This document shows, piece after piece, positions 4,045 to 22,577 of a DNA stretch of 25,620 nucleotides; within the stretch, counting starts at the first letter, position 1, and each line of letters begins with the position of its first letter. Source of the stretch: a virus. Below the pieces are notes generated by a model, which saw nothing but the letters and a program-made list of their open reading frames with translations, was not told the origin of the DNA and made no database searches. The stretch spans positions 1 to 25,620 of the IMG/VR virus record IMGVR_UViG_3300009104_000113. One strand, given 5' to 3'. The position numbers were made by a program, and so were the translations under genes.

Positions 4045-4308
4045 TTAAAAATAATTTTCCTCATACGCAACGTCCATTGCGTTCATCCACTCTTGTTGAC
4101 GCAGTAGTTCTTCCTCTGCCTCAATCTTCGATGCTTCGTCAATTATAAACTGAAGTTCAGCGACCTCATCGCAAGCACGATTCAAATCGTCACTCAGTTC
4201 TTTTTGTTGAAGAGCACTAAGATTATCCCAATCTTTATACTCTTCTCGCAATGCATCGCGTTCCTGTAGAGCATATTTGAGCTGTTTTCCTAATGGTATC
4301 TCGTTCAT
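4045..4308 (-). CDS. Coiled-coil hypothetical protein (87 aa)
   Basis: ATG at 4308 is preceded by GAGGT at a spacing of about 6, better than the ATG at 4329. The 87-aa acidic product has long helical stretches with heptad-like Leu and Ala spacing (about residues 10-75). It follows the C-rich-spacer promoter at 4339-4368 and is ended by the hairpin at 3969-3996, so it may be a single-gene early transcript. Family not recognised. Confidence 0.68.
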   Translation of the reverse strand: MNEIPLGKQLKYALQERDALREEYKDWDNLSALQQKELSDDLNRACDEVAELQFIIDEASKIEAEEELLRQQEWMNAMDVAYEENYF

Positions 4309-4338
4309 CTTTTTAACCTCAATTTTCATTATACATAT

Positions 4339-4911: not shown

Positions 4912-4985
4912 TGGAGCCCCTACACAGAATCGAACTGCGAATTGATCATTACAAGTGATCTGTTATACCGTTTAACTATAGGGGC
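4912..4985 (-). tRNA. tRNA-Thr (anticodon UGU)
   Basis: Read leftward from 4985, a 7-base acceptor stem GCCCCTA pairs with TAGGGGC (4922-4916). There is a D-arm (GTT...AAC), an anticodon arm GATCA-CTTGTAA-TGATC giving anticodon TGT, a 4-base variable region, and a T-arm CGCAG-TTCGATT-CTGTG with one G-U pair. The discriminator T and an encoded CCA (4914-4912) complete a 74-base cloverleaf. It decodes ACA (and other ACN by wobble), a codon likely to be frequent in an AT-rich phage. Its 5' end overlaps the 3' end of the upstream CDS by 14 bases. Confidence 0.95.
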
Positions 4986-20998: not shown

Positions 20999-21583
20999 TT
21001 ACTGCTCCTTCTTTATCAAATTTATTAAGACTATCTTACACCTTTCTCTGGGTATTGTCAAGAACTTTTTATAGTCATTCATCAATTTTTTGATGTCTGG
21101 CCAAAAAAGATCTTCACTCATTTTTTTATCCCAATTTTTTTGATACTGCACTAACTCGTCCAGTATAATAAGTGTTTCTAATGATACACGTTTACCAAAG
21201 TATTCTTTTAGTAGTAATGGGTGAGAACCCTCTGGTACTTCAAACAATTTTTCAAAGTCGCCAACGTGTGGTGACAACTCTTGTTCAAAATTATAACTTA
21301 AACTCTGCGTATGTTTTTTCCAATTCTCATAGACAACATCACTAAACTCACCTATCCAACCCTTCTTACTTGCCCAAACAAAATTTGCAACAAGATAATC
21401 TTTGATATCATCATACTCTTTTAATCGGTTGGCTAACTTTACAAAAAACAAACGGTCTTTTCTTTTGTAAAAGGATTTTCTGGAAACTTTGGATTTTCCA
21501 CCAAACTTATGAAAGTTATAATCACCTTCGCCAAAATGTGCTTTGATTGCACAGTATAACAAGTAAACATCAACAGATTCCAT
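20999..21583 (-). CDS. 59: Helicase loader gp59
   Basis: The 194-aa product aligns by eye with T4 gp59 (217 aa): DVYLLYCAIKAHF at the start, KSFYKRKDRLFFVKLANRL, FVWASKKGWIGEFSD near residue 70, and a helical C-terminal domain with VSLETLIILDEL. gp59 loads the gp41 helicase onto gp32-coated forks. It starts by overlapping the gp33 stop by 1 base (TAATG), the T4 order 33-59. In T4, gene 32 follows directly; here five genes lie between. Confidence 0.9.
   Translation of the reverse strand: MESVDVYLLYCAIKAHFGEGDYNFHKFGGKSKVSRKSFYKRKDRLFFVKLANRLKEYDDIKDYLVANFVWASKKGWIGEFSDVVYENWKKHTQSLSYNFEQELSPHVGDFEKLFEVPEGSHPLLLKEYFGKRVSLETLIILDELVQYQKNWDKKMSEDLFWPDIKKLMNDYKKFLTIPRERCKIVLINLIKKEQ
21033..21061 (-). 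promoter_or_regulatory. Sigma70-like promoter within gp59, leftward
   Basis: TTGACA (21061-21056), a 17-base spacer starting ATACCCAGAG and TAAGAT (21038-21033) lie at the 3' end of gp59. It would feed the coiled-coil gene, thyX and the downstream cassette independently of gp33/gp59. Confidence 0.7.
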
Positions 21584-21795
21584 TATATCGGTAGTTTGGC
21601 CTTCTTAGGTAGGAAGTTTAGGTCAGCTGCATTTGCTTCTATCTTTTCTTTCAGTCCCTTACTGATAAGTCTTGCAACGGTTGATGGGTCTATTTCATTT
21701 TTAGAACAATACCACAACACCGCATCCATATGGGATATGTTTTTCTCCAGTGCGATTTGTTCTATCTTGAGTGAAAATGTTTTAGTGGTTTGCAT
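21583..21795 (-). CDS. 33: Late transcription coactivator gp33
   Basis: The 70-aa product (ATG 21795, GGAG 5 bases upstream) matches the core of T4 gp33 (112 aa): ALEKNISHMDAVLWYCSKNEIDP followed by a helix and IEANAADLNFLP. gp33 bridges RNA polymerase beta-flap and the sliding clamp to activate late promoters. It lacks the long N-terminal part of T4 gp33. An in-frame ATG at 21834 would extend into the tmRNA terminator and is less likely. Confidence 0.85.
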   Translation of the reverse strand: MQTTKTFSLKIEQIALEKNISHMDAVLWYCSKNEIDPSTVARLISKGLKEKIEANAADLNFLPKKAKLPI

Positions 21796-21809
21796 ACAAA
21801 CTCCATAAT

Positions 21810-21843
21810 AAAAAGGTGGCCCGTTGAATAACAAGGTGGGCCA
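21810..21843 (-). terminator. Intrinsic terminator after the tmRNA
   Basis: On the minus strand TGGCCC (21843-21838) pairs with GGGCCA (21822-21817), followed by CC and TTTTT (21814-21810). This is a good intrinsic terminator just after the tmRNA coding piece. Some read-through or a separate start must supply gp33. Confidence 0.7.
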
Positions 21844-21983
21844 GACCCCGATGAGGTTCTACGCAGCTAAGCGATATTCCTCATAGTACCAATTATCGTT
21901 GGCAGTTATATTAACCGTTAAGGTGGTTAACCTCGTACTCTCCGCTTGTCTACTAGTTGCCCAGTCGAATCTAGTTCACCCCC
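21840..21983 (-). other. tmRNA coding piece (5' domain)
   Basis: It begins GGGGGTGAACTAG at 21983, continues through ATTCGAC and a pseudoknot-like GGTTAACC/TTAAC region, then the tag frame and the TGAGG...CCTCA stem. The 3' limit near 21840 is approximate, before or within the terminator stem. Confidence 0.85.
21859..21903 (-). other. tmRNA proteolysis tag reading frame
   Basis: Codons from GCC (21903-21901) to TAG (21861-21859) encode ANDNWYYEEYRLAA. The ANDN start is typical of alphaproteobacterial tags, and the LAA end is the ClpXP/ClpAP recognition terminus. Confidence 0.9.
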
Positions 21984-21984
21984 C

Positions 21985-22101
21985 TCAAAAAAAGACTAGA
22001 TAAATGATTCCAGAAATTAGAGCGATGTCTGCACATATACTCCATGCAATATAAACTCGAAATCCCCATTTCGAGACATCTTTTAATAAACGATTCTTCA
22101 T
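21985..22101 (-). CDS. Small membrane protein nested inside the tmRNA gene
   Basis: Between the two tmRNA pieces an ATG at 22101 opens 38 codons (MKNRLLKDVSKWGFRV then a hydrophobic helix ending IYLVFF) and stops with TGA at 21987-21985, one base before the coding piece begins at 21983. A GGTGAT Shine-Dalgarno (22111-22106) is 4 bases upstream. The product is a basic amphipathic start plus one membrane segment. A competing frame from ATG 22129, with AGGGGA upstream, runs 52 codons but ends inside the coding piece. Function unknown; the exact fit between the pieces is striking. Confidence 0.5.
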   Translation of the reverse strand: MKNRLLKDVSKWGFRVYIAWSICADIALISGIIYLVFF

Positions 22102-22142
22102 CGTCATCACCCATATTTTTCTGTATCATACTAATCCCCTTT

Positions 22143-22200
22143 TGGTGGAGGTGGGCGGAATTGCACCGCCGTCCTAAACAATTTCCAACTCGCATCATTG
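22143..22200 (-). other. tmRNA acceptor piece (3' domain)
   Basis: Elements in order leftward: a pairing region with AGTTG, GGAC, the T-arm at 22170-22154, acceptor strand CACCTCC (22153-22147), discriminator A (22146) and encoded CCA (22145-22143). The 5' end is estimated from the promoter at 22215-22244. Confidence 0.85.
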
Positions 22201-22214
22201 AATACGTTCTATAT

Positions 22215-22244
22215 ATACTATCAAAGTTCTCTAGGTAATGTCAA
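22215..22244 (-). promoter_or_regulatory. Sigma70-like promoter for the tmRNA, leftward
   Basis: TTGACA (22244-22239), an 18-base spacer beginning TTACCTAGAG and TAGTAT (22220-22215) lie about 10 bases upstream of the estimated tmRNA 5' end. It overlaps the 22248 gene end only marginally and belongs to the shared promoter family. Confidence 0.72.
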
Positions 22245-22247
22245 TAC

Positions 22248-22577
22248 CTAAACTGCAAAAGAGCTACCGCAACCACAAGTCGTTTGCACGTTTGGATTGC
22301 GAATAACAAACTGCGATGAAAAATGGTCTGACGAATAATCAATCTCTGCACCACTCAAGTATTGCAAACTCAGTGGGTCAACCACAAGTGTTACACCATC
22401 TGTAACTACTACTTCATCGTCCTCTTTCTTTTCATCAAAAGTAAAACCGTACTGAAAACCAGAACAACCGCCACCTTCTATGAACACACGCAAACTGGTG
22501 TCTTCAGTGACATCTGGATCTTCACCCATAATTTCTTTTACCTTCTTGGCAGCTGCACTATGAAATACTAAACTCAT
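22248..22577 (-). CDS. erpA: A-type Fe-S cluster carrier (ErpA/HesB-like)
   Basis: The 109-aa product matches the A-type carrier family over its full length. [11 protein letters not shown] places C38, and a C-terminal TCGCGSSF places C101 and C103, the three cluster ligands. [15 protein letters not shown] also fits ErpA. It would pass Fe-S clusters to apoproteins; the radical SAM enzyme encoded nearby needs such clusters, a plausible but unproven link. HesB-like genes occur in marine T4-like phages as auxiliary genes. The start lies inside the 3' end of the nuclease gene (20-base overlap) with GAGGAAG upstream. Confidence 0.93.

Follow-up and report, generated by a model that had tools for sequence, protein, structure and literature searches.

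A predicted small membrane-protein gene between the two pieces of a permuted tmRNA in marine T4-like phages

Two-piece tmRNAs come from a single precursor, presumably through cleavage by RNase P and tRNase Z (PMC3985003). What the mature RNA lacks is the intervening segment (IVS), whose only notable contents, in the relevant passages of one study, are one tRNA gene and one repetitive element (PMC11915505). The DNA analysed here, which we call the window, is a stretch of 25,620 bases that makes up positions 1 to 25,620 of the IMG/VR virus record IMGVR_UViG_3300009104_000113. A sequence-only reading of it had placed a membrane-protein ORF within a permuted tmRNA, between its two pieces, and had suggested that expression of the peptide and maturation of the tmRNA may be linked. 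We asked whether the nested frame is a gene and whether its place in the precursor matters to it.

The Rfam model for permuted tmRNA (RF04321) matches the window at 22206..21859 on the minus strand with 100.4 bits (E 8.9e-19; gathering score 47), and ARAGORN calls a tmRNA* at 22235..21768 whose tag frame ends in alanines. Boundaries were set by reading the sequence: the CCA end lies at 22143, and position 21983 opens the coding piece, where GGGGGUG pairs with CACCUCC, and all 7 acceptor-stem pairs form between the two pieces. The locus is laid out as follows.

22248..22577, minus strand: IscA-like protein gene, upstream context; taken from the ORF list, function by sequence reading, retained upstream in the window's close relatives
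22215..22244, minus strand: sigma-70-like promoter candidate TTGACA-18-TAGTAT just upstream of the acceptor piece, a consensus match only
22143..22206, minus strand: tmRNA acceptor piece with the T arm, the 3′ acceptor strand CACCUCC and an encoded CCA; the RF04321 match starts at 22206
21984..22142, minus strand: IVS of 159 nt between the CCA end and GGGGGUG, predicted to be absent from the mature two-piece tmRNA
21859..21983, minus strand: tmRNA coding piece from its 5′ end to the tag stop, with tag ANDNWYYEEYRLAA at 21903..21859 (ARAGORN and RF04321)
21583..21795, minus strand: gp33-like late-transcription accessory gene, downstream context; matches gp33 of Melnitz and Mosig

Transcription from the promoter-like site at 22215..22244 would yield acceptor piece, IVS and coding piece as a single precursor. 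A protein gene found at such a place (hereafter cargo) might simply lie between two dead pieces of a relic tmRNA, and the unusual tag end RLAA could be taken in that sense. We regard this as very improbable, given that acceptor pair 6 covaries in 191 of 191 cases (A-U in 103, G-C in 86 and U-A in 2), that tags are open, and that model scores are good in tmRNAs of both the alpha and the beta type. In ten loci whose cargo lies within or next to the tmRNA, Rfam permuted-tmRNA scores range from 86 to 120 bits; the cargo-bearing tmRNAs L166, L249, L323 and L326 match the alpha-type model, and L064 and L138 the beta-type model. The covariation and the scores together indicate that the tmRNA is still under RNA constraint.

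The frame nested in the IVS, termed ORF-b, and its presumed ribosome site are these.

21985..22101, minus strand: ORF-b, predicted gene for a 38-aa single-helix membrane protein with a basic start, MKNRLLKDVSKWGFRVYIAWSICADIALISGIIYLVFF; hydropathy window 2.05
22106..22112, minus strand: GGGTGAT, Shine-Dalgarno-like site before the ORF-b start; a G-run is kept at this place in relatives (AGGGGATCAAG and others)

As the sequence-only reading had described, ORF-b is nested between the pieces and runs from ATG 22101 to a TGA at 21987..21985, with 38 codons before the stop; further in-frame starts are GTG 22110 and ATG 22107. The ORF-b family was assembled by IMG/VR pattern scans for the distance from CCA to coding piece and by a search of IMG/VR with the peptide alignment, which gave 303 stretches and 282 relatives, of which 80 were fetched. 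The commonest IVS length in the family is 159 nt, and among the 51 distinct family IVSs of this length ORF-b is intact, with its own ATG conserved, in every one. pN/pS, obtained from pairwise counts uncorrected for saturation and shared ancestry so that the contrast between frames and not the absolute value is the evidence, is 0.23 in the ORF-b frame of these 51 IVSs and 1.07 and 1.91 in the other two frames. None of 200 column permutations of a 15-sequence subset gave a value as low as that of ORF-b. The conserved core of the peptide is KW....Y..WSICAD..L..G...L.FF, and in 75 of the 80 loci fetched (from the 282 relatives) the stop falls 1 nt before the GGGGG[CT]G coding piece.

Conservation of this kind could belong to the RNA, with ORF-b a chance frame in a structured spacer, and the helix strands at both ends of the IVS are indeed constrained as RNA. 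The constraint across the middle of the IVS is frame-specific, however, residues are kept across divergent DNA, and a copy of ORF-b also occurs outside the IVS in a different RNA context. Because selection is frame-specific, we exclude the chance frame as extremely unlikely. The peptide, rather than the RNA only, is thus what has been conserved in the comparison that the earlier reading had called for, and since ORF-b is intact throughout the family and pN/pS is low in its frame and no other, we conclude on comparative sequence evidence that it is a real protein-coding gene under purifying selection.

We tentatively suggest that the small product sits in the inner membrane and that, in infection, the host envelope is its probable target. 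A peptide-only search of cultured phage records gave no match to ORF-b, and a Pfam scan of one ORF-b relative gave no match and no endonuclease domain. The family phrog_7343 (function unknown) was considered for ORF-b and dropped: the window peptide matched it with E 5.8e-4 over 25 residues, and two divergent relatives were without a match. Its profile is matched by the window clade only, and it was not found in the cultured phages tried.

A second frame had been held to compete with ORF-b for the same segment.

21971..22129, minus strand: ORF-a, leader-like reading frame with its start at IVS +14; 52 codons in the window

In the window ORF-a opens with ATG 22129 and ends 13 nt into the coding piece. 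Its start codon stands at IVS +14 in 51 of 51 family members (GTG in 35, ATG in 12 and TTG in 4), preceded by a Shine-Dalgarno of the AAAGGAG type. Its length is 19 codons in 38 of the 51 and 18, 23 or at least 48 codons in the remainder, and ahead of the overlap with ORF-b its pN/pS is 1.0, which indicates no protein constraint. Since conservation extends to its start but not to its peptide, ORF-a looks like a leader ORF and not like a rival protein. The second frame therefore stands as a conserved start, and was dropped as a conserved product.

Another way to account for the conserved start is that the product under selection is a fusion, begun at +14 in ORF-a and carried into ORF-b by a +1 shift, or is ORF-a itself. 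This is unlikely in our view. The start and its Shine-Dalgarno are conserved in all 51 members, and ORF-a also precedes ORF-b in two closely examined copies sited upstream of the tmRNA (L279 and L307), which speaks for such a product; yet the part of ORF-a before the overlap lacks constraint, and the candidate shift site CCC-U/C of most family members is absent from the window clade. Moreover, ORF-b has its own conserved ATG with a G-rich site ahead, and in L342 and L345 ORF-a is replaced by another gene while ORF-b is retained.

The start and stop signals of these frames overlap RNA elements at the two ends of the IVS.

22131..22142, minus strand: AAAGGGGAUUAG, the 5′ strand of the closing helix, paired with 21999..21988; also the Shine-Dalgarno for the start at +14
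21988..21999, minus strand: 3′ strand of the closing helix; also encodes C-terminal codons of ORF-b
21984..21987, minus strand: UGAN spacer (UGAG in the window) just before the coding piece; serves as the ORF-b stop

The first 11-12 nt of the IVS pair with the nucleotides directly ahead of the UGAN spacer, and in a set of 92 distinct end pairs, duplexes average -10.5 kcal/mol between an IVS's own ends against -3.7 kcal/mol between swapped ends. For the window family, the Shine-Dalgarno AAAGGAGAUU forms the 5′ strand, and the last ORF-b residues (...L[VI]FF) are encoded by the 3′ strand. Pairs 1-11 are formed in 49-51 of the 51 members, with exchanges among G-C, G-U and A-U at pair 4 and from U-A to G-U at pair 10. 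Computed folds of 50 precursors give a mean pair probability of 0.98 for the closing helix and 0.99 for the acceptor stem. In the fold computed for the window the Shine-Dalgarno strand is buried at pair probabilities of 0.98-1.0, and the ribosome site of ORF-b, too, is largely paired. The sealed ribosome site is a feature of computed folds, and the 3′-strand codons and the Shine-Dalgarno could each keep the helix without a regulatory role. A physical link between ORF-b translation and tmRNA maturation is plausible, because the start and stop signals overlap precursor RNA elements and the Shine-Dalgarno strand is buried in the folded precursor. The placing of the TGA one base before the coding piece, to which the sequence-only reading had drawn attention, is correct, but a stop at -1 that is special to ORF-b had to be abandoned: UGAU is the general end of IVSs, found in most of them with or without ORF-b, among them 81 distinct non-family IVSs and IVSs free of any ORF.

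In other phages the IVS holds cargo unrelated to ORF-b, and some IVSs have no gene. The cargo types are given below.

NEFEL cargo: 68-74-aa membrane protein, within the L322-L353 set
DUF2061-like cargo: 68-aa protein in L326, L328, L330 and L344
L334 cargo: 76-aa membrane protein
Short amphipathic peptide cargo: YEDLC, MFDRL and Melnitz type
Membrane peptide cargo of 24-41 aa: L064, L138, L132, L188, L207, L216 and L027
L228 cargo: zinc-ribbon-like peptide, IVS of 133 nt
Tandem cargo, YEDLC then ORF-b: L340, L342 and L345

Other IVSs either measure only 10-80 nt or are structured and lack ORFs of this kind. In the multi-member cargo families, pN/pS in the frame read is 0.20-0.52 (NEFEL 0.32, DUF2061 0.20, Melnitz-type 0.29, MFDRL 0.47 and YEDLC 0.52) against 0.73-2.08 in the other frames. 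Among 67 clusters of IVSs of at least 80 nt, 20 hold an ORF of at least 22 codons with a Shine-Dalgarno start that fills at least half of the IVS and stops within it, where dinucleotide shuffles lead one to expect 3.9. By hydropathy, about 11-12 of 18 peptide types have a transmembrane-like stretch, the DUF2061 value of 1.63 being borderline. The match of the L326/L328/L330/L344 cargo to DUF2061 (PF09834) covers 51 of 52 positions with E 1.8e-4 and 22.3 bits, just under the cut-off of 23.1, and neither this cargo nor NEFEL gave a match in cultured phages. Some cargo frames cross the processing site (Melnitz-type, L125, L158, L172 and L228), so being complete inside the excised RNA is not universal. 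The L228 frame, which extends into the coding piece, has two CxxC pairs and a match to Zn_ribbon_8 at E 6e-4, below cut-off.

A DNA pattern with a gap of 134-164 nt was found in 45 viral contigs; in about 85,000 bacterial and archaeal genomes the same pattern gave 6 hits, none of them called a tmRNA, and cargo as a trait common to bacteria was dropped for gaps of this size. The permuted tmRNA spacer of marine T4-like phages is, on these comparisons, a cargo site for small protein genes. Two further kinds of IVS were seen. A second type of phage permuted tmRNA has an IVS of 79-170 nt without the closing helix (L024, L107, L183, L200, L006, L023, L133, L136, L152, L234 and L113). It carries a conserved frame, YYTENEWSRLGxxGPLPPERN (pN/pS 0.41 vs 1.16 and 1.32). 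In L024, L107, L183 and L023, which were read through, this frame is already open in the acceptor piece, continues across the IVS and reaches the coding piece without a stop, so the protein may be overprinted on the tmRNA itself. In L258 and L352, where the IVS is 236 nt long, what resembles an entire older IVS hairpin (AAACACTTGG...CCAAGTGTTTCTGAT) has been inserted, with a duplicated GGAGATTAGA on one side and ORF-b on the other; it may document the way in which cargo came to be added.

In most loci long enough to show it, the tmRNA sits between phoH/exonuclease and gp33/gp59 homologues, and a gp33-like gene follows most related tmRNAs wherever the contig extends so far. Cargo swaps have occurred mostly at one syntenic locus (exonuclease - tmRNA - gp33), in alpha-type and beta-type tmRNAs. 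On an exonuclease tree, a quick one with some placements unsure, there are at least 28 changes of cargo label, compared with about 58 for shuffled labels and a least possible number of 10, which indicates that IVS cargo is partly inherited and often exchanged. In five loci (L278, L279, L281, L300 and L307) ORF-b lies just upstream of the tmRNA and not in the IVS, and the IVS of these loci is short (10 nt in L281 and 36 nt in L307, for instance). Upstream, L307 and L306 share 98.5% identity across 2,350 bases, yet ORF-b is outside in the former and inside the IVS in the latter; the two ORF-b copies are about 81% identical, pointing to replacement by recombination and not to a simple jump. A tRNA-Thr (TGT) gene occurs at 4912-4985 of the window, and one also lies downstream of the tmRNA in L278, L279, L281, L300, L307 and L270.

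Coupling to the tmRNA is not essential to the ORF-b peptide, because cargo is optional and exchangeable and ORF-b stands outside the IVS in these five loci. An obligatory link between peptide expression and tmRNA maturation is also not supported by tmRNAs at the same place, which have short IVSs or unrelated cargo in some phages; what survives of the proposed link is the plausible physical one, with the Shine-Dalgarno strand paired at 0.98 or above. Related phages with an unrelated intervening segment, which the sequence-only reading had named as evidence against itself, do exist and speak against coupling of ORF-b to the tmRNA, yet those segments are often genes themselves.

How might a gene so placed be expressed? 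We think it likely that the spacer is a cargo site in which the conserved ORF-b follows a leader start, and that the peptide is made from nascent or unprocessed precursor before folding and processing seal it. One transcript would comprise acceptor piece, cargo and coding piece. During transcription the Shine-Dalgarno strand that opens the spacer would be unpaired and ribosomes could load; once the end of the spacer had been transcribed, this strand would pair with the codons of the protein's last residues and the acceptor stem would form atop the closing helix. Host tRNA end-maturation enzymes would then excise the spacer with its ribosome sites sealed, so that the peptide would come mainly from nascent or uncut RNA and the excised spacer would be mostly silent. 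We infer translation at this stage because the Shine-Dalgarno is free until the spacer end is made and sealed afterwards. The scheme is built on the nesting, purifying selection, leader start, helix, spacer and cargo exchange seen in these sequences; translation itself and its timing, the enzymes that process the precursor and any regulation of the tmRNA are what we propose in addition.

The strongest rival, to which we give somewhat less than an even chance, is that the nesting is passive: phages pressed to pack genes would use the spacer like any other gap, helix and UGAN would persist for tmRNA processing only, and translation and maturation would not affect one another. Cargo that is swapped or absent in relatives, with the 28 label changes of the exonuclease tree, fits this well, as do the ORF-b copies directly upstream of the tmRNA and the presence of the UGAU end and closing helix without ORFs. 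Less readily accommodated is a start 14 nt after the CCA, with its Shine-Dalgarno in the closing helix, that is kept in 51 of 51 members though the leader peptide is not, and this suggests that ribosome loading there matters. That the spacer is a switch between translation and maturation, with ribosomes at the leader start holding the closing helix and acceptor stem open, seems doubtful to us. If it were so, the amounts of peptide and mature phage tmRNA would be traded off on each transcript, and the peptide gene would have been swapped while the switch was kept.

The two-piece tmRNA of marine phages has been reported and linked to streamlined hosts in the Melnitz paper, whose passages on the subject do not discuss an IVS ORF (PMC9004378). 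No report of a protein gene in a tmRNA IVS was found in the open-licence papers searched; as far as we have found, small protein genes that sit in the permuted tmRNA spacer and differ among marine phages are apparently undescribed. Permuted tmRNA spacers have so far been treated as waste, and in abundant marine phages they house small protein genes, among them those for a set of conserved, functionally uncharacterized small membrane proteins. Such genes will probably escape gene callers, as in the Melnitz record, where only 'SsrA' is annotated over the IVS. With Melnitz in culture, a possible competition between the translation of a nested ORF and the maturation of the structured RNA around it becomes open to direct test.

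The known permuted tmRNAs (RF04321, RF01849 and RF01850; phages Melnitz and Mosig) have the same order of acceptor piece, IVS and coding piece, the tag frame and the exonuclease-gp33 locus; Pelagibacter phage Mosig is a named carrier. The cultured Methylophilales phage Melnitz has a 142-nt IVS with a Shine-Dalgarno-started frame (MFKWLSKTRLVVITRDYF...) that is conserved in environmental relatives. In its record (L141, MZ577097) this frame, at 4169-4333, crosses the processing site, so that cutting of the precursor would leave a stop-less message, itself a tmRNA substrate. Phage S-CAM1 (L354, KU686192) was dropped as a cargo case, with about 4 nt between its tmRNA pieces; its 'hypothetical protein' frame at 675-800 runs across a permuted tmRNA missing from the annotation and is probably a spurious gene prediction. 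For a short Sinorhizobium frame that overlies the tag region, a test showed the start codon to be dispensable for tag translation (PMC10117765); ORF-b, in the IVS, occupies a different place. Homing endonuclease ORFs of group I introns, tmRNA introns included, are likewise protein genes in an RNA segment that is removed, with ORF and structure interleaved; such ORFs are given for tmRNA-gene introns (36/883), and endonuclease ORFs for introns only, in the pertinent sections of PMC11915505. The IVS cargo differs from them in that there is no splicing (the tmRNA pieces stay separate), endonuclease motifs are absent and the products are mostly small membrane proteins, and it seems to be exchanged through phage recombination, not by homing. 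In the RNA phage MS2, the lysis gene is a short membrane-protein frame that begins within another frame, in the +1 register and upstream of that frame's stop. ORF-b has the same overlap layout, with a leader that is an unconserved 19-codon peptide and not a coat protein.
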